From Planomonospora sp. ID82291 (lineage in GTDB: Bacteria; Actinomycetota; Actinomycetes; Streptosporangiales; Streptosporangiaceae), in contig NZ_JABTEX010000009.1 of NCBI RefSeq assembly GCF_015711645.1, forward strand, positions 1-64,000: a stretch of 64,000 nt of DNA. The letters are read 5' to 3'. Positions 34,245 to 51,113 of this stretch are shown here, piece by piece. Each line of letters begins with the position of its first letter. Position 1 is the stretch's first letter. The position numbers and the translations under genes are program-made. The notes below the pieces were generated by a model. It worked only from the letters and a program-made list of their open reading frames with translations. It ran no database searches and was not told the DNA's origin.

Positions 34245-39649
<5,405 letters not shown>

Positions 39650-39672
39650 CGCTTGTCTCGACGGGCAAGAGG

Positions 39673-40476
39673 TCAGGCAATGGTAAGGCCGGAACGGTCC
39701 CGGCGGGATTCCGCCCCGGCCTCCCGCGCCCGTTCCCCGGCCCGTTCCCCGGCCCGTTCCGCGGCTTTTCCCGCCCGTTCCCCGGTCCGTTCCCCGGATC
39801 GGGCGCGCCCCCGCCGCGAACCGGCGTAGGCCGCCTCGCGCACCCGCAGGAGCAGGGCGGGGAAGCGCAGCGCCGGGTGGCGGTTCAGCATCGGGTCGAA
39901 CGCGGCGAACTCCTCGTCCGGGAGCACGGTGTGCAGGCTCAGCCGGGCGAACGGCCGCCGGCGGCCCTCGACGCCGAGGACGAAGTCCAGCGGGGCCGCC
40001 GCGACGGTCTCGGCGATCGCGCCGGGGTCGGCGGAGCGCGCACGGGTGCGGTCGGCCGTCACGGCCAGGAACCGGATCCGCCCGGACCCGTGCCGGTAGG
40101 GGATCAGCGTGGAGAAGACACCGGAGCCGAACCCGGTGCTCGGGAAGGGCAGCCACCGGGGCCGGCCCCTCGTGGCCAGCAGCAGGTCGAGGACGCCGCC
40201 GGGCGCCTGCTCGCACGGGAGCCGTACGGCCAGGCCGAGCACGTCGGGCAGGCCGCCGGGCAGGGAGGCCCCCTTGGAGAGCCGTACCAGGGCCTGCCGC
40301 TCCCCGGGCTCGTCGAGGACGGGGACGCCGAGGCGGGGGCCGGCGTGGTCGAGGACGCGGAAGGCGGCGCGGAAGAACCGCCCCCGGGTGTGGACCGCGC
40401 GGCCGCCGCGCAGCGCCGCCACGCGGCGGAACAGCGAGGGGACGACACCGGTCTGGTCAGGTGAGCAAGAGGTCAT
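39673..40476 (-). CDS. Hypothetical protein with faint catalase-like motif
   Basis: About 267 residues. The core has [20 protein letters not shown], resembling the VRFSxxxG...PDVRGMA block of catalase-fold proteins, but heme and catalytic residues could not be identified. The C-terminal about 45 residues are Arg/Ala/Gly/Glu repeats from a 12-bp-like DNA repeat (about 39729-39797, CCCGTTCCCCGG units). Start ATG 40476 is preceded by GGTGGGGG. Same direction as the kinase, 23 bases upstream of its start, so possibly cotranscribed. Confidence 0.55.
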
Positions 40477-40628
40477 GCCCCCCACCTACCCCGGCGACCG
40501 GATCACAGCGGGCCGTGCCGGAATCGGTGCTGGAATCCGTGCCGGGGCCGCGCGGGGCGGTGCCGTGCGGGGCCGGGTGGATCCCGTGGCGCGCGGGACC
40601 GCACCGCGGGAGAGCCGGGATCAGGCCC

Positions 40629-40712
40629 GCAGCGGCCGTGGATCTTCAGGACGAGCCGGCGGAACGGAGCCGGCCGCCGGCCTCCGGCCATCGGTTCCCC
40701 GGCATCGAGGGT
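40629..40712 (-). pseudogene. Relic of a second FxsB-type radical SAM gene (N-terminal end)
   Basis: Reverse strand reads TLDAGEPMAGGRRPAPFRRL then VLKIHGRC. It aligns with the N-terminal block of the intact maturase on the plus strand (MLDVDGLLASGWRPSAFQQF, ILKIHSRC): LD, A-G, RP, F, LKIH and RC coincide. Homology stops at the first Cys of the radical SAM motif, after which the frame reads Pro/Arg-rich sequence. It therefore looks like the start of a divergently oriented homologue that has otherwise been lost. Confidence 0.55.
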
Positions 40713-40849
40713 CGACGGCCCCGCGCGCACCGCTGATCGGCCTCCGTGTTGAGACCACGTCATGCAGCCGCAGGACAGGGGAGCCGTCCCGGCGGCGCAG
40801 GATGTTGTCGTAACGGTGCGTGATGGTTCGAACGCGGCCGGTCTGAATC

Positions 40850-40879
40850 TTGACTATCGACACGAATTCAGGCGAAATA
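40850..40879 (+). promoter_or_regulatory. Possible promoter of the radical SAM gene
   Basis: TTGACT at 40850-40855 with GAAATA at 40874-40879 (18-base spacer) in an AT-rich island. If used, translation must start downstream, supporting the GTG at 40900 or ATG at 40951 over the ATG at 40762. Confidence 0.35.
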
Positions 40880-40899
40880 GAAAATGGCGCAAGAGAGGT

Positions 40900-42147
40900 G
40901 TGCCGCGGTTGCCAAAAGAACCCGAAACCGAAAATCTGCCACCCGAAAACATGTTTCCGGCAATGCTCGACGTGGACGGATTGCTGGCCTCGGGATGGCG
41001 GCCGTCGGCCTTCCAGCAGTTCATCCTGAAGATCCACAGCCGCTGCGACCTGGCCTGCGCGTACTGCTACATGTACGAGATGGCGGACCAGTCGTGGAGG
41101 GCCCAGCCGCGCCGCATGTCGGAGGCGATCGCCGACCGGGTGGCGCGGCGGATCGCCGAGCACGCGCTGGGCCACGACCTCGCCGAGGTGGAGGTGATCC
41201 TCCACGGCGGGGAGCCGCTCCTGGCGGGACCGGAGTTCATCTCCCACGCCGTGCATGCGATCAGGGCGGCGGCCGCCGACGTCGGGACGCGGGTGCACCT
41301 GGCGGTGCAGACCAACGGGGTCCGGCTCGACGAGACCTTCCTGCGGCTGTTCGACGCCCTGGAGGTCCGTGTGGGCGTGAGCCTGGACGGTGACGAGGAG
41401 GCCCAGGACCGCCACCGGCGCTTCGCCGGCGGGCGGGGGAGCCACGCGGCGGTCTCCCGCTCCCTCCGCAGGCTTGCCTTCGGCCGCTTTCACCACCTCT
41501 TCAGCGGCCTGCTCTGCACGATCGACGTCCGGAACGACCCCCTGGCCACCTATGAGGCGCTGCTCGCCTTCGACCCGCCCGCCGTTGACTTCCTGCTCCC
41601 GCACGGCAACTGGTCCTCGCCGCCGCCCTTCCGCGACCCGGAGTCGATCGCCACTCCGTACGCCGACTGGCTGATCCCGATCTTCGACCGCTGGTACGGC
41701 GCCCCCGCCGAGGAGACGGAGATCCGGCTGTTCACCGAGATCATGCGCCTGCTGACCGGGCGACCCTCGCGGACGGAGACGGTCGGGCTGTCACCGGTGC
41801 GGATGGCCGTCGTCGAGACGGACGGCAGCATCGAGCAGTCGGACATCCTCAAGTCCAGCTATCACGGAGCCACCGCGACCCGCATGCACGTCCTGCGCAA
41901 CTCCTTCGACGAGGTGCTCGCCCACCCGGCGATAGCGGCCCGGCAGATCGGCGAGCTCGCGCTGGCGCGAACCTGCCTCGAATGCGACCTCGTCCGGGTC
42001 TGCGGCGGCGGGCTCTACGCCCACCGCTACAACACCGGCACCGGGTTCCTGGCGCCCTCGGTCTACTGCCCCGACCTCTACCGGCTCATCACCCACATCC
42101 ACGCCACCCTCGCCCGGGACGTCGCCCTGCTGAAGGGAAGCCGATGA
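40900..42147 (+). CDS. fxsB: FxsB-type radical SAM/SPASM cyclophane peptide maturase
   Basis: A 415-residue radical SAM enzyme (from GTG 40900). Cys49, Cys53 and Cys56 (CDLACAYCY) bind the SAM-cleaving iron-sulfur cluster; the following MYEMADQSW is highly characteristic of FxsB-type maturases. The C-terminal SPASM region has CLECDLVRVCGGG and a later YC for auxiliary clusters. Family members link the Phe ring to the Ser beta-carbon of an FxS motif in the precursor. An upstream ATG at 40762 would give 461 residues but spans an AT-rich, promoter-like stretch; ATG 40951 is another option. The stop overlaps the HExxH gene (ATGA). The matching precursor is encoded at 46224-46400. Confidence 0.88.
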   Translation: MPRLPKEPETENLPPENMFPAMLDVDGLLASGWRPSAFQQFILKIHSRCDLACAYCYMYEMADQSWRAQPRRMSEAIADRVARRIAEHALGHDLAEVEVILHGGEPLLAGPEFISHAVHAIRAAAADVGTRVHLAVQTNGVRLDETFLRLFDALEVRVGVSLDGDEEAQDRHRRFAGGRGSHAAVSRSLRRLAFGRFHHLFSGLLCTIDVRNDPLATYEALLAFDPPAVDFLLPHGNWSSPPPFRDPESIATPYADWLIPIFDRWYGAPAEETEIRLFTEIMRLLTGRPSRTETVGLSPVRMAVVETDGSIEQSDILKSSYHGATATRMHVLRNSFDEVLAHPAIAARQIGELALARTCLECDLVRVCGGGLYAHRYNTGTGFLAPSVYCPDLYRLITHIHATLARDVALLKGSR

Positions 42148-43463
42148 GACTCTTCACCCGGCCGCTCTCCGGGACGGTCCTGGCGGAACTGGCGGCAGGA
42201 GGGGGCGGTGCCGCGGCCGTACGCGAACTGGCGGCGGCGCAGCACCTGAAGAACCTGCTACTGCTGCGCGGGGTCGTCGAGGAGGCGGCGGCGGCCCGGC
42301 ACCCCCGTGCCGAGCTGGCGGCCGAGGCCTACGGGCTCCTGTCGGACATGGAGAACCGCGCGGCGGACCGGGTCGGGCGGGTGCTGCGCCATCCGGCGGC
42401 CGGGGCGTGGGCGTGGCGGACCTACCGGTCGCTGAGCCGGCGGACCGGTGAGGAGGATCCCGGGAGGCTGGGCGCGCTGGCGCTCTCGGCCGCGATCGGC
42501 TCGCGGACCGCGTGCGAGCTCCGGCTGCCCGTCGCGGGCGGGGACGTCATGCTGCCGTCCCTGGGCCTGCTCACCCTGCCCGCCGAGCTCGGGGCGGTGG
42601 CCGACGTCGCCGTACGGCCGGACGGCACCGGGGACGGCGACGGCGACGGAGCCGAACTCCGCTTCGGCCGGTTCACGGTCCGGGTCGACCCCCACCGGGA
42701 CGGGCCGGGCTGGCAGGCGCTGCACCGGCTGGCGGTGAGGCCGGGATTCAGCCTGGTCGTCGACGACCTGGACCCGTACCGGTGGGCGGTGGCCGACGTC
42801 GTCGAGCCGAGGCTGAGCGCGGAGCGGCGCGGTTGGTGGCAGTCGTGCCTGCGGGACGCCTGGCGCATCCTGACGGCCCACCACGGTACCGTCGCCGAGG
42901 AGGTCGCCGCGGCGACCCGCGTCCTCACCCCGATCCAGGCGCCCGCCTGCGGCCAGAACAGCGCGACGTCCCGGGAGACGTTCGGGACCATGGCGCTCTC
43001 GGAGCCCCGCCACGGGCTCGGATTCGCGGAGACCTTCGCCCATGAGGTCCAGCACGCCAAGCTGACCGCCCTGACCGACATGGTCGATCTCACGCTGCCG
43101 GACGACGGTCGGCGTCACTACGCACCCTGGCGGCCCGACCCGCGGCCTGTCTACGGACTGCTGCAGGGCGCTTACGCCTACCTCGGCGTGGCAGGGTTCT
43201 GGCAGCGGCAGCGGCGGTTCGAGAGCGGGGAGGAGGGCTTCCGGGCCGAGGTGGGGTTCGCGCGCTGGCGGGAGGGCGCCCATCTCGTCACCGGCACGCT
43301 CCAGGCCAGCGGGTGCCTGACCGAGCGGGGACAGGAGTTCGTCGCCGTGATGAGGGGGACGCTGGAGCGGCTGCTCGCGGAACCGGTGGACCCCGCGGCG
43401 GCGGCGCAGGCACGACGTGAGGCCGACCGGCACCGCGAGGAGTGGACCAGGCGGAACGCCTGA
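42144..43463 (+). CDS. HExxH-motif putative peptide-modification protein
   Basis: A 439-residue protein of the family annotated as HExxH motif-containing putative peptide modification protein, which accompanies FxsB enzymes or is fused to them in an inactivated form. Here the zinc motif is intact: His300-Glu301-Val-Gln-His304 within AETFAHEVQHAKL. A metalloprotease role, for example leader removal, is plausible but unproven. ATG 42144 overlaps the radical SAM stop and GAAGGGAAG stands just before it. Ends 13 bases from the convergent FxsT gene. Confidence 0.82.
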   Translation: MRLFTRPLSGTVLAELAAGGGGAAAVRELAAAQHLKNLLLLRGVVEEAAAARHPRAELAAEAYGLLSDMENRAADRVGRVLRHPAAGAWAWRTYRSLSRRTGEEDPGRLGALALSAAIGSRTACELRLPVAGGDVMLPSLGLLTLPAELGAVADVAVRPDGTGDGDGDGAELRFGRFTVRVDPHRDGPGWQALHRLAVRPGFSLVVDDLDPYRWAVADVVEPRLSAERRGWWQSCLRDAWRILTAHHGTVAEEVAAATRVLTPIQAPACGQNSATSRETFGTMALSEPRHGLGFAETFAHEVQHAKLTALTDMVDLTLPDDGRRHYAPWRPDPRPVYGLLQGAYAYLGVAGFWQRQRRFESGEEGFRAEVGFARWREGAHLVTGTLQASGCLTERGQEFVAVMRGTLERLLAEPVDPAAAAQARREADRHREEWTRRNA

Positions 43464-43476
43464 CCGCGGTGCCCGG

Positions 43477-46077
43477 TCAGATCGGCGGCGGGTCGAAGTC
43501 GGTGTCGATGCGCAGGCCGGCGACCGCCGCGAGGATGTCGGGCTGGACCGACGCCAGCGGGCTGTACTCGTAGCGCTCCAGGGTCTCGGTCCGGAGCCGC
43601 TCCGCCTCCTTCTCCGCACCGGCGGCCCGCAGGTCGAGCGAGAGGTTGGCGGCGCACAGCAGTGAGAGGTAGTGCTCCTCGCCGAAGAGCCCGTGGAGTC
43701 GTCGGAGGGTGTCCTCGCCGAGCTCCCGCGCCCTGGCGGTCTCGCCCAGGAGCGCGAGGTCCGTCGCGAGGTTGACGGCGCAGGCCAGTGAGTAGTTGTG
43801 CGTCCGGCCGACCGTGGCGGTCAGCCTCTCCAGGGCCGCCTCGTCGATGGCCCTGGCGGTCTCGGTGTCTCCGCGCAGCCGGCACAGGATCGCGAGGTTG
43901 CTCCGGCAGGCCTGGGTGTACGGGTGGTCCTCGCTGTAGACCCGGGGATAGCGGAGCACGGTCTCCTGCGCGATGGCGAACGCCTCGTCGAGTTCGCCGG
44001 TCGTGCGCAGGGCGTTGGAGAGGTTGACCGCGGCGGCCATGGTGTCGGGATGCTCGTTACCGAAGAGCCGCTGGAACCGCGCGTGCGCGTCGCGGGCCAT
44101 GGCCAGCGCCTCGGGGAGATCGCCGGCCCTGCGCCGGGCGATGGACAGGTCCTTGGCGGTGAGCAGGGTGACGGGATGGTCGGGACCCAGTTCCTGGACG
44201 CCGTAGGCATGCGCCTCGTCGCCCAGGTCGCATGCCTCGGCGTAGTCTCCGCAGAGCCGCACGACGCGGGCCAGGCCGTTCCACGACAGCAGGAAGGAGG
44301 ACTTGCTGATCCCCTGGGTCGCGTCGCTCTGCTCCAGGTAGGTCTCCTGCTGCAGCGTCCGGGCGAGCATGTAGTCGCTGGTGAGGCCGTAGTCGAGGGC
44401 GAGGTTGTTCATCACGCGCAGGGTGGACGGGTGGGTCGGTCCCAAGGTCTGCTCGTGGGCCTGCCGGGACTCCTCGTCGAGTTCGCGGGCCCTCATGAAC
44501 TCCCCTCGGGCGCGCAGGGAGGCGCCGAAGGCGTTGGTCATCGACAGGGTCTCGGGATGCCGCGGTCCGAAGACCTCGTGCATGAGTTCCAGGGTCTCCC
44601 TGCCGAGGTCGTAGTCCTCGGCGTACCTACCGAGTCCGCGCAGCACGTTGCCCAGGTGCTTGCGCGCGATCAGCACGTCGGGGTGCCGGGGCCCGCTGCT
44701 CTCGGACCACCTGCCGATGAAGTCCTCCGCGAAGGTGAGGGCCGACTGGTAGTTGCCCGCCTGGTACAGGTAGCGGACGATGTTCAAAGCGAACCTGCGC
44801 ACCACGGGCTCGGTGCTCTCGGCGAGCTCCGAAGGGGCGACGTGGCCCACCAGCTCCTCGAACTGGCGCCATCTCGTGCTGTCGTCCGGGTCGGGCGGTG
44901 CGCTGCCGGCCAGCAGCAGGTGGACCTCCCGCCGCGCCGTCCGCTGCTCCTCACCGGACAGGCCGTCGCGCAGGAGCGCCTGAACGAGGCGGTGGACCTG
45001 GATGGTGCGTGTCTCGGGCTCGATCCTGGCGAGGGCGAAACGCCGCAGCTCGCTCAGGGCCTTGGCCAGCAGGATGGGATCGGACAGGATCGAGCTCAGC
45101 AGCGGGTCGGCCTTCTCCCCGGCACCGCGGCCGATGGTCCGCCCGCCCCGGCGGAAGATGTCACGCGGGATGGGCTCGGGACCGAAGAACGCGCAGCACC
45201 GCAGGATCCTGACGGCCTCGGGGAGCCGGTCCTGCAGCATGGAGACCGAGACCTGCCAGGCGGCCGTCATCGACAGGGGGTAGCCCGACGCCTTGTTCGC
45301 GCCGAGCAGCCGGCCGGTCTGCTCGTCGAGCTGCTCGATGTACTCGTCGACCGACATGCCGGTCTCGTACTGGAGCGCTCCGGCCTGCTCCAGCGCGAGG
45401 GGCAGGTCGCCGAGCTTCTCCGCGAGCCGGGAGGCGTCCTCGTCCGAGATCTCCCTCCGCAGCCGCCTGCGGAGGAACTCCACGCTCTCCTCGCGCTCGA
45501 ACACGTCGACCTGGAGCGTCTCGAAACGGTCCTCCCAGTCGGGGTTGCGCGAAGTGATCAGTACGTGCCCGGGCCCGAGCGGGATGAACTCCTCGATCCT
45601 GGCGGGGTCCTCGGCGTTGTCGAAGATCAGCAGCCAGCGGCGGTACGGCTCGCCGCTCTGCAGCGCCCTGCGCACCGCCTCGGCCGTCTCCTCCACACCG
45701 GTGGTCGCGGCGCTCGGCAGGCCGAGGTGGGGCGCCATCATGGCCAGCGCCGACGGCACCAGGACGCGTTGGTCGGCGGGGATCCACCAGACCAGGTCGT
45801 AGTGGGACCGGTAGCGCCAGGCGTACTCGATGGCCAGGTGGGTCTTGCCGACGCCGCCCAGGCCCTGGAGCGCCTGGGGCTGGGGGACGACGGCGGTCAC
45901 GGTGCTGATGCCCCGGCGGAGCCGGGTGAGGAGCTCCTCGCGGCCGGTGAAGTTCCTGTTGCGCGGCGGCACTTTCTCCCAGACCTCGGGCGACCGCTCA
46001 GGCACCGCGTTCACCGTGTGAGAAAGCTCCGCCACCTGAGGCCTCCACCCTGTGAGCCGAAACGATCCTTCGGCCAT
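43477..46077 (-). CDS. fxsT: FxsT-type NB-ARC/TPR protein of the FxSxx-COOH system
   Basis: An 866-residue STAND-class ATPase. The N terminus carries VPPRNRNFTGREELLTRL and the P-loop GLGGVGKTH (residues 72-80), then the NB-ARC block DLVWWIPADQ, LLIFDNAEDP and LPLALEQAGAL. From about residue 400 there are many tetratricopeptide repeats (A.E.LGPDHP.TL-type units of about 42 residues). This matches the FxSxx-COOH system tetratricopeptide repeat protein, thought to sense or relay a signal. It is divergent from the precursor gene with a 146-base shared control region and convergent with the HExxH gene. Confidence 0.85.
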   Translation of the reverse strand: MAEGSFRLTGWRPQVAELSHTVNAVPERSPEVWEKVPPRNRNFTGREELLTRLRRGISTVTAVVPQPQALQGLGGVGKTHLAIEYAWRYRSHYDLVWWIPADQRVLVPSALAMMAPHLGLPSAATTGVEETAEAVRRALQSGEPYRRWLLIFDNAEDPARIEEFIPLGPGHVLITSRNPDWEDRFETLQVDVFEREESVEFLRRRLRREISDEDASRLAEKLGDLPLALEQAGALQYETGMSVDEYIEQLDEQTGRLLGANKASGYPLSMTAAWQVSVSMLQDRLPEAVRILRCCAFFGPEPIPRDIFRRGGRTIGRGAGEKADPLLSSILSDPILLAKALSELRRFALARIEPETRTIQVHRLVQALLRDGLSGEEQRTARREVHLLLAGSAPPDPDDSTRWRQFEELVGHVAPSELAESTEPVVRRFALNIVRYLYQAGNYQSALTFAEDFIGRWSESSGPRHPDVLIARKHLGNVLRGLGRYAEDYDLGRETLELMHEVFGPRHPETLSMTNAFGASLRARGEFMRARELDEESRQAHEQTLGPTHPSTLRVMNNLALDYGLTSDYMLARTLQQETYLEQSDATQGISKSSFLLSWNGLARVVRLCGDYAEACDLGDEAHAYGVQELGPDHPVTLLTAKDLSIARRRAGDLPEALAMARDAHARFQRLFGNEHPDTMAAAVNLSNALRTTGELDEAFAIAQETVLRYPRVYSEDHPYTQACRSNLAILCRLRGDTETARAIDEAALERLTATVGRTHNYSLACAVNLATDLALLGETARARELGEDTLRRLHGLFGEEHYLSLLCAANLSLDLRAAGAEKEAERLRTETLERYEYSPLASVQPDILAAVAGLRIDTDFDPPPI

Positions 46078-46089
46078 CCTAAAGGTTGA

Positions 46090-46119
46090 TTGACGAAGGG
46101 GAGTGTCACAGAATGATTT
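46090..46119 (+). promoter_or_regulatory. Possible fxsA promoter
   Basis: TTGACG (46090-46095) and TGATTT (46114-46119) with an 18-base spacer, in the divergent gap. The message would have a leader of roughly 100 bases before the precursor ATG. Confidence 0.4.
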
Positions 46120-46223
46120 AAACCCCGGTGGCAGGATCCCGGAGCGATCGGAGGACGGGGTGGCCGCATTGTTTTCGGGCCGGCCGTAACGACGGGACGG
46201 TCCGAGAAAGTGGAGGAGTGATC

Positions 46224-46400
46224 ATGCGTGAAAATGAGACAGGATGCAAGCCTGCAGAAGTCCTCGTCGGTCGCGACAGGCTGCCCCTGCTGTCCCTGGA
46301 AGACATCCAGGGAATCGACAATCCCGTCTTGGGCAGGATGCTGCAGTCGCTCCTCCAGGATGATCGACCTCCACTGGCGGGGTTCAATTCCGTCATATGA
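46224..46400 (+). CDS. fxsA: FxSxx-COOH cyclophane RiPP precursor
   Basis: A 58-residue peptide. The leader contains PAEVLVGRDRLPLLSLEDI, and the C terminus is Phe54-Asn55-Ser56-Val57-Ile58 followed directly by TGA, an exact match to the FxSxx-COOH definition. Start ATG 46224 was chosen because GGAGG lies seven bases before it; a longer frame from 46128 has no ribosome site. FxsB encoded 4 kb away on the same strand should crosslink Phe54 to Ser56. The gene is AT-richer than its neighbours. It is followed by the SIR2/STAND pair on the same strand, probably in one transcript. Confidence 0.85.
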   Translation: MRENETGCKPAEVLVGRDRLPLLSLEDIQGIDNPVLGRMLQSLLQDDRPPLAGFNSVI

Positions 46401-46496
46401 TCCCGCCGGGCATTGACCGGGCCAATAGAGTCGTACGGCATCGGCCCGTGGTCCGCCGGGCCCGCGGTCGACGAGGTGGTGCCGTGCGTGTACGAC

Positions 46497-47387
46497 ATGG
46501 GTGACGCCGAATGGGAGCGTTTGATCTACCAGCTGAGAAGCGGGGACTGCACGCCTTTCCTGGGGTCGGGGGCGTGCGTGGGCACCCTGCCGACCGGAAC
46601 GGCGCTCAGCCGGAAAATGGCCCGCCGCTGGGGATATCCCTACGGGGACGACCACGACCTCCCCCGGGTGGCGCAGTTCGGAGCGATCAAATACGGCGAC
46701 GCCGTCCATGTCAAAAGACTGGTCTGCGACGAGCTGGACGCGGCGGATCCCCCGGATTTCCTCCATCCGCTGGAACCGCACGGGCTGCTGGCGGAGTTCC
46801 CGCTCCCGGTGTACCTGACGACCAACTACGACGACTTCATCTTCCGCTCCCTGAAAGCGGTGGGGAAACGCCCGAACACGGCCGTCTGCCCGTGGAACAA
46901 GGACATCGCCTACGCCGAGAAGCTGTTCAGCAACGAGGCCGGGTGGAACCCCCAGCCGGACACGCCGCTCATCTACCACCTGCACGGCAACCTGCAGGAC
47001 CCGACGTCGATCGTGCTGGCCGAGGACGACTACCTGGAGTTCCTCACCAGCCTCGCGGCCGAGGGCGTCGCGGGCAGCCAGCGGATGCTGCCCACCTCGA
47101 TCCTCGCGGCGCTGACCCGGCGCCCCCTGTTGTTCATCGGCTACAGCCTGCAGGACTGGACGTTCCGCGTCCTGTTCCGCGGGCTGCTGCGGGCGGTCCC
47201 CGGCATCAACCGGCGCAGGCACATCAGCGTGCAGCTCGCCCCCTCGCTCGACACCAGCAAGGCGGACGTGAAGGACGTGCAGCGGCAACTGGCGAGATAC
47301 TACGAGGACTGGCGGATCTCCATCTTCTGGGGGACCGCCGAGGAGTTCTGCATGGAGCTGCGGCGGCGGATGGGGGCGATGTCGTGA
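46497..47387 (+). CDS. SIR2-like domain protein
   Basis: A 296-residue protein of the SIR2_2 type found in bacterial conflict systems, where such domains degrade NAD. FLGSGAC (residues 21-27) fits the NAD-binding glycine loop, TTNYDD (108-113) the Asn/Asp pair, HLHG (161-164) the catalytic His, and FIGYSLQDWTFR the C-terminal block. Start ATG 46497; an in-frame TTG at 46413 would start 13 bases after the precursor stop but has no ribosome site. The stop overlaps the STAND ATPase start as GTGA, so the two proteins are coupled. Role as toxin or signalling effector is inference. Confidence 0.8.
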   Translation: MGDAEWERLIYQLRSGDCTPFLGSGACVGTLPTGTALSRKMARRWGYPYGDDHDLPRVAQFGAIKYGDAVHVKRLVCDELDAADPPDFLHPLEPHGLLAEFPLPVYLTTNYDDFIFRSLKAVGKRPNTAVCPWNKDIAYAEKLFSNEAGWNPQPDTPLIYHLHGNLQDPTSIVLAEDDYLEFLTSLAAEGVAGSQRMLPTSILAALTRRPLLFIGYSLQDWTFRVLFRGLLRAVPGINRRRHISVQLAPSLDTSKADVKDVQRQLARYYEDWRISIFWGTAEEFCMELRRRMGAMS

Positions 47388-49393
47388 GCCCGGGTGACGT
47401 CCGCCCGGCGCAGGCGGTCGAACCGTACGTGGGGTTGCGGGCGTTCCGGCGGGAGGACGGCGCCCGGTTCTTCGGGCGGGCCAGGGAGTCGCACGAGATC
47501 GCCGACCTCTGGCAGGCCAACCGCCTGACCATCCTCTACGGCCCTTCGGGGGTGGGCAAGACCTCGCTCATCCAGGCCGGCGTGCTCCCGCTGATGGATC
47601 CGACCACGGTCGACATCCTGCCGATCGGCCGCGTGTCGCACGGCTCCCCCTTCCCCTCCGCCGCGCTCTCGCAGCACAACCCGCACGTCTTCGCCCTGCT
47701 GTCGTCGTGGTCCCCGGAGGAGACGCCCACGCGGCTGGCCGGCCTGACGCTCCGCGGGTTCCTGCGGCGCAGGCCGTCCCGGCAGGACCCGTACGGGGAT
47801 CCGGTGCTGACCCTGGCCGCGATCGACCAGGCGGAGGAGCTGTTCGGCGACCTCGCCCACCGCCAGCCGTACCGGGAATGGTTCATCGACCAGCTCGTGG
47901 AGGCGCTGGACGAGGATCCGCACCTGCGCCTGCTCGTGTCGATCCGCGAGGACTACCTGGCCGCGATCCTTCCCTACGAGCCCAAACTGGCCGGCATGCC
48001 CCGGGGCCGCTTCCCGCTCGCCGCGCTCGACACGGCGGCGGCGGTGCGGGCGACGGAGGGTCCGCTGGAGGGCACCGGCCGGTCCTTCGCGCCGGGAGCC
48101 GCCGAAGGGCTGGTGGAGGACCTGCGCAGGATCCGGGTGGGAACGGCGCTCGGGGAGGAGGTCGTGGCCGACGCGAAGGTGGTCGAGCCCGTCCAGCTCC
48201 AGGTCGTCTGCTCCGCCATGTGGCGCTCCCTTCCCGCCGACGTACGGGTCATCACCGCCGAGCACGTGCGCCGCTTCGCCGACGCCGACCGGTCGCTCAC
48301 CGGCTTCTTCGAACGGATGATCGCCGAGGTGGCCCGCGACCACCTCGGCGGGGACACCGACCGCCTGCGGACCTGGCTGCGCCGCAACTTCATCACGGAG
48401 CACGGCAGGCGCGAGATCGTCTACCAGGGCGAGACCCTCACGGCCGGGGAGCCGAACCGCGTGGTCAGGGCGCTGGTGGAGCGCCACATCCTGCGGGAGG
48501 ACCTCCGGGCGGGCGCGCGCTGGTGCGAGCTCTCGCACGAGCGGCTCATCCAGCCCATCCTCCAGCACGGCCGCGCCGCCGAGCCGGTCGAGAGCCGGGC
48601 CACACCGGACGAGTACCTGCGCGCCGCCGAGCTGGCCTTCCGCGACGGCGAGTTCGGGCTGGCCGCGAAACAGGCGGAGGAGGCGCTGAGCAGGTGCGGG
48701 GACGACACGTGGCTCCGCGCGGAGATCGAGTCCTTCCTCGGCAACGTCGCGCACCGGCGCGAGGACTTCGAGAAGGCGGTCGCGCACTACCGCACGGCCG
48801 CGGTCCTGTTCGAGACGCTGGGCGCGACCACCGCGGTGGGCCGGCTGCTCGCCGGGATCGGGCGGCTCCGACTGGCGCAGGGGCGGCCCGCGGTCGCCGT
48901 GCAGGAGCTGTACTCCGCGATCCGCCGGGTCCCCGGCGACACCGCCATCCAGACCGAACTCGCCTGGGCGCTGTGGTACGGCGGGCACCCCGACGCGGCG
49001 AGGGACGTCCTCAACGACGCCCTCGCCCGGGAGGGGGACGCCGCGGAGGCGCTGCGCGCGCGGGGGGAGATCCTGGCCGATCTCGGCCGGACGGCGGAGG
49101 CCCTGCACGACCTCGAACGGGTCCGGCCGCTGCAGTGGCCGTCCACCCGGGCCGCCTACGCCCTCGCGCTCGCCTCCGGAGGGCGGGCCGCCGAGGCGGA
49201 CCGGGAGATCACGGCCGTGCTGGCCGAAGCGGGCGACCACGGCCCCGTCCTGCTGTACGCGGCCAGGGTCAGGGAACTGGCCGGTGACGCCCCCTCAGCG
49301 GCCGGTCTGGCTCGGCGTGCGAAGGCCGCGGTGGCTCCGCGGCTTCCTCCGCACCTGACCGCAGAGGCGGACCGCCTGGCGGAACAGGTCTGA
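47384..49393 (+). CDS. STAND-family NTPase with C-terminal TPR repeats
   Basis: A 669-residue nSTAND1-like protein. It opens with the typical EPYVGLRAFRREDGARFFGR, then Walker A GPSGVGKTS (53-61), Walker B AAIDQAEELF (about 145-154), and a winged-helix-like region ending WCELSHERLIQPI. From about residue 405 TPR-type helices follow (DEYLRAAELAFRDGEFGLA). Such proteins oligomerise on sensing a trigger and activate an attached or separate effector; here the coupled SIR2 protein is the obvious effector. Start GTG 47384. Its 3' end overlaps the convergent MFS gene by 99 bases. Confidence 0.82.
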   Translation: MSPGDVRPAQAVEPYVGLRAFRREDGARFFGRARESHEIADLWQANRLTILYGPSGVGKTSLIQAGVLPLMDPTTVDILPIGRVSHGSPFPSAALSQHNPHVFALLSSWSPEETPTRLAGLTLRGFLRRRPSRQDPYGDPVLTLAAIDQAEELFGDLAHRQPYREWFIDQLVEALDEDPHLRLLVSIREDYLAAILPYEPKLAGMPRGRFPLAALDTAAAVRATEGPLEGTGRSFAPGAAEGLVEDLRRIRVGTALGEEVVADAKVVEPVQLQVVCSAMWRSLPADVRVITAEHVRRFADADRSLTGFFERMIAEVARDHLGGDTDRLRTWLRRNFITEHGRREIVYQGETLTAGEPNRVVRALVERHILREDLRAGARWCELSHERLIQPILQHGRAAEPVESRATPDEYLRAAELAFRDGEFGLAAKQAEEALSRCGDDTWLRAEIESFLGNVAHRREDFEKAVAHYRTAAVLFETLGATTAVGRLLAGIGRLRLAQGRPAVAVQELYSAIRRVPGDTAIQTELAWALWYGGHPDAARDVLNDALAREGDAAEALRARGEILADLGRTAEALHDLERVRPLQWPSTRAAYALALASGGRAAEADREITAVLAEAGDHGPVLLYAARVRELAGDAPSAAGLARRAKAAVAPRLPPHLTAEADRLAEQV

Positions 49394-50836
49394 CCGGCGG
49401 CAGGCCGGTTCGGGGGCGGGTGGGACCCGGCCCTCCGGCCGGCTGCGGATCCGTCCGGGGGCGGGTGGCCCGGCGGAGGCGGACCGCCTCCGCCGGACCT
49501 TCCGGAGCGCGACCGCCGCGGACACGAGCAGGGTGGTGCCGGACATGGCGAGGAACAGGCTCGTCGTCGCCGCCGCCACCCCCACCGCGGAGACGAGGAA
49601 CCCGCCGAGCGGTGCCGCCAGGCACACGGCGCCGTGCGTGGTGAACCGGTGCACGCTGACCACCCGGGCGAGCTTGCCCTCGGCGACCCGATCGATCTCG
49701 AAGGCCCTGACGGACATGTTGCTGAGCGCTCCGGCGCACCCCATCAGGAACAGCGCGGCGCCGAAGAAGACGGGGGACCCGCCCCCGACCGGGATGAGGA
49801 GGGCGAACGTCCATATCCACATGTGGGCGAAGAGCAGGATCTCCCGGGGACGCCCGAGCGGCGCCAGACGCGGTGCCAGTAGCCGATGCCGGAGCAGGCG
49901 CCGCAGCGGAGGCGCCAGAGCCGACCCGAACACCCCGCCCAGACCGCTGGCGGCGAGGATCAGGCCGACCTTCAGAGGAGAGCGGGTCACCGTGCCGGCG
50001 ACGAAGATGATGATCAGCATATTGCTCATCAGGTTCGTGAACGTGGTCAGCACCATGGCGTCGCGCAGGAAGCGGTGGCTTCTCAGCTCCCCGACGCCGG
50101 CTGTCATCTCCTGGAGGAACGGCAGTCTCCCGCCCGTGGGGACCGCCGTCCGCGGGGCACGGCGTTCCTTCCCTCCCGACAGGGTGAGCACGGCGATGAG
50201 CGAGGCGAAGAAAAGTAGGGCGTTCATCACGAACGGCACGTAGTGGCCGAGTCCGAACAGGAACCCTCCCACAGGCCTGGCGGTCATCACCGCGATGTGG
50301 GAGTTCGTCTCGCTCGTGGCCAGCATGCCGACGAGGCTCGCCCGGGGGACGGCGGACCGGATCAGAGCCGTCTCCGCCAGCGAGTAGACGACCCAGAAGG
50401 CGCCCTCCACGAAAGCGGCTGCCAGCAGGTGGGGGAGGGTCGTCCTCCCGAAGAGCACGGCCAGGAACACGCTCGTCACCGCCAGCAGACGGGCCGCCTC
50501 GGTGGCCACCATGACGGCGCGCGCGGTCATCCGATCGACGAGGAGGCCGGCCGGGATATAGAAGAGCAGGGTCGGAAGGGTCAGGGCGAAACCGACCCAG
50601 CCGACGTGCACCGGTGACTTCGTCAGCGACAGGGCCAGCAGCGGGTAGGTGACCCCCAGGGTCCGGAACCCCACCGTCGAGGACATCGAACCCGCGCAGA
50701 TGCGGAGCAGGTCCCACCGCGACCGGATCTCCGCCTCTCGGAGCCCGCCGGAGGGCGGCGGTCCCTCCGATGGGCGGGGCTCATCGGACCGCGGGGTGCC
50801 CGGAGCCGCGAGGGGCGTCCCAGGCTCCGTTCCCAC
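49295..50836 (-). CDS. MFS exporter (MFS_3/enterobactin-exporter type)
   Basis: About 513 residues with twelve helices after a cytoplasmic Pro-rich N terminus of about 45 residues. Motifs of the family: FYIPAGLLVDRMTARAVMV, VEGAFWVVYSLAETALI and GLILAASGLGGVFGSALAP. GTG 50836 is chosen because sequence upstream is unlike protein; an open frame continues to 51016. The last about 65 residues are Arg/Pro-rich and overlap the STAND gene tail, so the true end may have been extended by mutation. Adjacent to the cyclophane locus, it could export the mature peptide, but this is inference. Confidence 0.75.
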   Translation of the reverse strand: MGTEPGTPLAAPGTPRSDEPRPSEGPPPSGGLREAEIRSRWDLLRICAGSMSSTVGFRTLGVTYPLLALSLTKSPVHVGWVGFALTLPTLLFYIPAGLLVDRMTARAVMVATEAARLLAVTSVFLAVLFGRTTLPHLLAAAFVEGAFWVVYSLAETALIRSAVPRASLVGMLATSETNSHIAVMTARPVGGFLFGLGHYVPFVMNALLFFASLIAVLTLSGGKERRAPRTAVPTGGRLPFLQEMTAGVGELRSHRFLRDAMVLTTFTNLMSNMLIIIFVAGTVTRSPLKVGLILAASGLGGVFGSALAPPLRRLLRHRLLAPRLAPLGRPREILLFAHMWIWTFALLIPVGGGSPVFFGAALFLMGCAGALSNMSVRAFEIDRVAEGKLARVVSVHRFTTHGAVCLAAPLGGFLVSAVGVAAATTSLFLAMSGTTLLVSAAVALRKVRRRRSASAGPPAPGRIRSRPEGRVPPAPEPACRRSDLFRQAVRLCGQVRRKPRSHRGLRTPSQTGR

Positions 50837-51113
50837 GATCCGTTCGTCCCCTCTGCTCCTGCCGGCGTCGTCGGGAACAGCCCATCGTGAAGAACGGAGG
50901 GGAGAGCTGTAGCGACCCTCGTTGCCGGAGGGAAAATGGTGGCTCTTTGGGCAGCCGACTACCAGGGGGAAGCCGTGCCCCGACGATCGCTCCGGGTCGC
51001 CCGCGGGCAGCAGCATAGCGCTGGTCGTGGTCTTCCGCGACGCCGTCGGCGACTCCCCTCCTGCGGTGCTCCCCGGGAAGGGGAAGGGGCGGCATGCCGT
51101 ATCGGCCGGGAGG

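Follow-up and report, generated by a model that had tools for sequence, protein, structure and literature searches.

Does a reading frame of fewer than 60 codons, lying between two divergent genes, encode a modified peptide, and what could such a peptide do beside a SIR2-like protein and two STAND NTPases? The frame was found in the window, the 64,000-nucleotide stretch of Planomonospora sp. ID82291 that was analysed (contig NZ_JABTEX010000009.1, positions 1 to 64,000). The putative features of the surrounding cassette are collected in Table 1.

Precursor gene and its translation

The frame, here called fxsA, begins with ATG at 46224-46226 and ends with TGA at 46398-46400. It encodes the 58-residue peptide MRENETGCKPAEVLVGRDRLPLLSLEDIQGIDNPVLGRMLQSLLQDDRPPLAGFNSVI, which terminates in FNSVI directly before the stop and thus carries the FxSxx motif at its C-terminus. 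The sequence-only reading of this DNA had proposed a precursor of this length ending exactly in the motif, with a well-spaced GGAGG and with Phe54 and Ser56 as the linked residues. The frame, the spacing of 7 nt ahead of the ATG, and the numbering of both residues were all borne out. It had also expected that gene callers could miss so small a gene and would tend to choose a longer frame without a ribosome site. A longer frame is indeed present, starting at GTG 46128 and encoding 90 aa, and its Shine-Dalgarno (SD) match extends to just 3 bases. The short form is favoured because SD-preceded starts in the relatives yield peptides of similar length (MREDESG..., MREEETG..., and MHENEFG...). Most homologues that have an SD-preceded start of their own measure 47-60 residues. 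The fxsA frame has a dN/dS of 0.36 against the copy in Planomonospora parontospora, which is consistent with translation.

Membership in the FxsA family over both leader and core was found with two profiles. TIGR04268 matches fxsA at 26.5 bits (E 5.6e-6, profile positions 5-44 of 44), which is 1.5 bits below the curated cut-off of 28 bits, a threshold for naming in the database and not a biological feature. The same profile matches 31 of 39 cassette peptides at E 0.01. A second profile, made from the relatives without fxsA and its P. parontospora sister, finds fxsA at E 5.8e-11. This is the sole significant match among 922 frames of the window, the next having an E of 0.12. When the source genome was searched for the family, a clear score was obtained at the fxsA locus only. 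A gene for an FxsB maturase lies 4.1 kb away.

It is extremely improbable that 46224-46400 is a chance frame without translation. Such an explanation could draw on the TIGR04268 score slightly under the cut-off and on the terminal motif, which by itself is weak evidence because about 0.6% of ORFs of at least 30 aa end in F.S.. (window and related loci pooled, most of these being homologues). Within the window, fxsA is the only ORF of that size with this ending. Against chance stand the first place of fxsA among all frames with the relatives' profile, the position and SD sequence kept across genera, and the dN/dS value. Taken together, position, profile match and neighbours lift fxsA far above what chance would give, and it is near certain that the ORF encodes an FxsA-type (FxSxx-COOH) RiPP precursor. 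The FxsA peptide, the FxsB maturase and FxsT are already named NCBI families, and the peptide is not new in kind.

Genes of the cassette

Table 1. Putative features of the FxSxx cassette and its borders in the window.
Feature	Coordinates	Strand	Evidence
Decayed 5' stub of a second, divergent fxsB	40628..40763	-	Breakpoint relative to P. parontospora
fxsB, radical SAM/SPASM cyclophane-forming maturase	40762..42147	+	TIGR04269, 481.5 bits (cut-off 370); CDLACAYC motif
aKG-HExxH-type peptide beta-hydroxylase, HEVQH intact	42144..43463	+	TIGR04267, 169.3 bits (cut-off 40)
fxsT, NB-ARC (AP-ATPase) + TPR protein, divergent from fxsA	43477..46077	-	NF040586, 1034 bits (cut-off 300); Pfam NB-ARC, TPR
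GGAGG ribosome-binding site, 7 nt 5' of ATG	46212..46216	+	SD-preceded starts in relatives
fxsA, 58-aa FxSxx-COOH precursor peptide	46224..46400	+	TIGR04268; relatives' profile; dN/dS
Core FNSVI, predicted Phe54-Ser56 cyclophane, Asn55 candidate hydroxylation site	46383..46397	+	Sequence; chemistry by analogy (PMC11002830, PMC12636437)
SIR2-like protein, predicted NADase	46479..47387	+	PF13289, 94 bits
nSTAND1 NTPase + TPR protein	47384..49393	+	PF20703, 121.8 bits; found in 42/42 loci
MFS transporter at cassette end	49295..51016	-	PF07690 and PF05977

The radical SAM gene named as partner in the sequence-only reading is a cognate FxsB encoded in the same cassette. Its closest match in the PDB is the ChlB structure 9gm3 (E 3e-79). 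The listed FxsB has an N-terminal extension that is not shared with the P. parontospora sister, and the true start of fxsB is probably downstream of 40762. The dN/dS obtained for FxsB was set aside as an artefact of this misplaced start. The start of the HExxH gene overlaps the fxsB stop (ATGA). Its product matches a solved HExxH domain (PDB 22nu, E 4.6e-42), and a hydroxylase function is predicted from the aKG-HExxH family score and the intact motif, which is also intact in all copies recovered from the cassettes. This second enzyme had been overlooked in the earlier reading.

Downstream of fxsA, the start codon of the SIR2 gene lies somewhere within 46413-46497, and the start of the nSTAND1-TPR gene overlaps the SIR2 stop. 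A leader peptidase could not be recognised in the cassette, and the annotated neighbours of fxsA showed no vWA, MoxR, FxsC or TIR gene. FxsC was found neither in the source genome nor in that of P. parontospora. The window and P. parontospora also have in common a gene outside the cassette (35402-39709, - strand), which encodes a hybrid histidine kinase containing an extended tandem array of HAMP domains.

Predicted peptide modification

Residues 1 to about 50 of FxsA would serve as the leader that is recognised by the maturases. MscB links C4 of Phe to Cbeta of Ser (PMC11002830). By analogy with such characterised relatives, FxsB would very likely couple the Phe54 ring (C4) to Cbeta of Ser56 and produce a three-residue cyclophane at the C-terminus. 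HExxH enzymes are known to hydroxylate Asp, His, Gln and Asn, and one of these enzymes requires a preformed cyclophane (PMC12636437). The separate aKG-HExxH enzyme would then probably beta-hydroxylate a residue within the ring, Asn55 being the likeliest. The earlier reading expected a loss of 2 Da. With Asn55 hydroxylation the predicted net shift would be about +14 Da instead and, since an intact hydroxylase is encoded in the cassette, a pure -2 Da product would be expected only with FxsB alone.

Conservation across related loci

A total of 299 genomes of the same family were searched; apart from the source strain, P. parontospora alone represented the genus in the results. FxsB is present in 200 of these genomes and a relative of the SIR2 protein in 61. 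Forty-one related loci were fetched. The first large batch was chosen by SIR2 score and was thus not selected for FxsB; the second was chosen partly for a nearby FxsB. Genes for FxsT, SIR2 and nSTAND are retained in all 41, with FxsT upstream of SIR2 in the opposite orientation and nSTAND downstream. FxsB and the HExxH enzyme are encoded beyond FxsT in most loci; in a few they lie elsewhere or are not contained in the fetched stretch. An FxsA-like ORF occupies the gap between FxsT and SIR2 in 40 of 42 loci, the window included. These peptides share LID..GLSL.DL.......L..AL..L, followed by a spacer and AGFxSSI. The SIR2 motifs TTNYD and HLHG are kept in all 42 copies.

Comparison with known systems

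The described family of TIGR04268 peptides, FxsB (TIGR04269) and FxsT (NF040586) resembles the present cassette in its C-terminal FxSxx, its conserved leader, and the presence of FxsB and FxsT. It differs in that fxsA here lies beyond a divergent fxsT and not beside fxsB, and in that SIR2 and nSTAND1 are present here without FxsC. The entry IPR026335 is equivalent to TIGR04269, which places the MscB-type maturase in the same family as FxsB. In MscB-type triceptides (IPR026335 maturase) the substrate is likewise F-x-S (PMC11002830), whereas here a separate, intact HExxH hydroxylase gene overlaps fxsB, and the product here is a predicted one. Both catalytic domains of ChlB/ChlBH (PDB 9gm3 and 22nu) match by sequence, but there they form one fused protein and here two separate overlapping genes, and the precursor motif differs.

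The SIR2-like protein has its best matches among defence NADases. It belongs to the same SIR2 family as ThsA, with which it aligns at E 2.5e-10, including the catalytic Asn and His of ThsA, and the PADLOC ThsA models match it. A Thoeris system consists of a SIR2-SLOG ThsA and a TIR ThsB. In the window only the SIR2 part matches, and the cassette contains no SLOG domain or TIR partner; the SIR2 protein is instead paired with nSTAND1-TPR and the RiPP module.

The vWA-MoxR modules that contain FxSxx peptides also share a radical SAM-SPASM enzyme, an HExxH protein and an AP-ATPase with TPRs (PMC7159879). No vWA or MoxR was seen here, and in those modules the zincin-like HExxH protein was read as a peptidase (PMC7159879). 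Kaur et al. (2020) discussed the FxSxx peptides in the context of conflict systems that include AP-ATPase and TIR (PMC7159879); SIR2 is not mentioned in that work and the pairing of SIR2 with nSTAND was not found there. A literature search for the names FxsA, FxsB, FxsC and FxsT returned unrelated abbreviations only, among the matches listed. The novelty of a SIR2 + nSTAND FxSxx cassette is provisional.

There is a second type of cassette in which fxsA is followed directly by a fused FxsB-HExxH, then by FxsC (TIR) and FxsT (L162, 10121-15357; similar in L156-L167). FxsT there has added ParA-like and TIR domains, and FxsC is present in place of SIR2 and nSTAND. Since FxsC elsewhere in the family is a TIR protein, FxSxx systems contain two distinct NAD-linked folds.

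Possible functions of the cassette

The SIR2 and nSTAND pairing is the interesting part of the locus because the function of FxSxx peptides is not established, nor is the biological role of triceptides (PMC12257519). These neighbours resemble bacterial immune proteins that destroy NAD, and they hint at the purpose of the peptides. An FxSxx peptide is encoded in one conserved block with two STAND NTPases and a SIR2 protein whose catalytic motifs are intact, which gives a concrete function that can be tested. It raises the question of whether the modified peptide sets the NAD level or triggers cell death. The modified tail would work intracellularly, as a ligand or signal of FxsT and nSTAND1-TPR, the two STAND proteins. 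They in turn would control the SIR2 NADase, forming a switch that is immunity-like or decides cell fate. This signalling step is speculative, and we would put it at somewhat under an even chance. As a whole, the combination of FxsA precursor, cyclophane, hydroxylation and STAND/SIR2 signalling is, with moderate confidence, the best explanation of the locus. It is possible, if rather doubtful, that the cassette is an undescribed intracellular alarm, in which the hydroxylated cyclophane would be a STAND ligand or a guarded self-token that switches on the SIR2 NADase. A parallel between such an alarm and the FxSxx systems that use the TIR protein FxsC instead of SIR2 is similarly tentative.

Export of the peptide has to be taken seriously as a rival: in 24 of 43 cassettes an MFS homologue, in either orientation, lies no more than about 4 kb from nSTAND; among 20 other loci selected for FxsB, for which the fetched stretches were somewhat different, only one has it. 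A frequent transporter neighbour suits export no less than an intracellular role. The modified peptide would then be a secreted antibiotic or signal, FxsT and nSTAND would be regulators, and SIR2 would be accessory. The small cyclophane RiPPs of known activity, darobactin and dynobactin, are antibiotics (PMC12257519). However, 19 of the 43 cassettes have no such MFS neighbour, whereas FxsT, SIR2 and nSTAND are constant; no leader protease was seen in the cassette, and the affinity of SIR2 is with defence NADases. Export thus appears unlikely, though it deserves weight. The peptide may also be the toxin itself, with the STAND and SIR2 proteins holding it in check or setting it free. A role of this kind has been proposed for FxSxx peptides in vWA-MoxR systems, for which Kaur et al. 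(2020) predicted a processed peptide toxin or a signal amplifying the core system (PMC7159879). The peptide does diverge faster than its neighbours in many locus pairs, but L098/L099 and L091/L097, the most closely related pairs, show no such increase, and the vWA and MoxR genes of those systems are missing from the annotated neighbours. A toxic peptide is accordingly judged improbable, and intracellular signalling through the STAND and SIR2 proteins is preferred over both.

Variants of the terminal motif

An exact FxSxx-COOH end is not universal in the orthologues. Among 40 peptides, 27 end in exact FxSxx, three have FxS followed by 1-16 extra residues, five have FxA, three FxQ, one FxN and one HxS. 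The middle residue of the three-residue motif is polar (Q, D, N, S, T or E) in all 40. A residue other than Ser tends to occur with a tail, in six of nine extended peptides against three of 31 unextended ones (Fisher p 0.0014, a value that ignores shared ancestry). Peptides with FxN, FxQ, FxA or His for Phe occupy the same slot in L083, L089, L093, L095, L101, L103, L108, L110, L111 and L173. His replaces Phe in L108 (HDSMI) and L173 (HQSSV), and in several variants the tail starts with Asp. From such natural variants (FxA, FxN, FxQ, HxS and extended tails), a single enzyme family would be expected to make new types of crosslink.

The P. parontospora orthologue (L071, 7930-8094, - strand) ends in GFSASI-KAQSGAA, that is, FxA with a 7-residue tail. 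It follows that the system does not strictly depend on Ser56 or on a free C-terminus at this position. A frameshift was ruled out as the source of this tail, the difference being 21 nt in-frame.

Divergence and deletion relative to P. parontospora

The region from 46081 to 46400, which covers fxsA and its upstream sequence, is 67-87% identical to the sister, against a median of 95%; other stretches of low identity occur near fxsA. The dS of fxsA is 0.77, compared with about 0.11 in the neighbouring genes, a difference that points to local replacement or multiple hits. The dN/dS of 0.36, together with this elevated dS, led to the rejection of positive selection on fxsA.

In P. parontospora, a second, divergent cassette stands back to back with the first. 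The junction 40627/40628 of the window matches P. parontospora at L072:6075 and L071:13711. In this comparison the window lacks the second cassette through a clean deletion, about 8.4 kb in size, with the decayed stub of its fxsB left behind.
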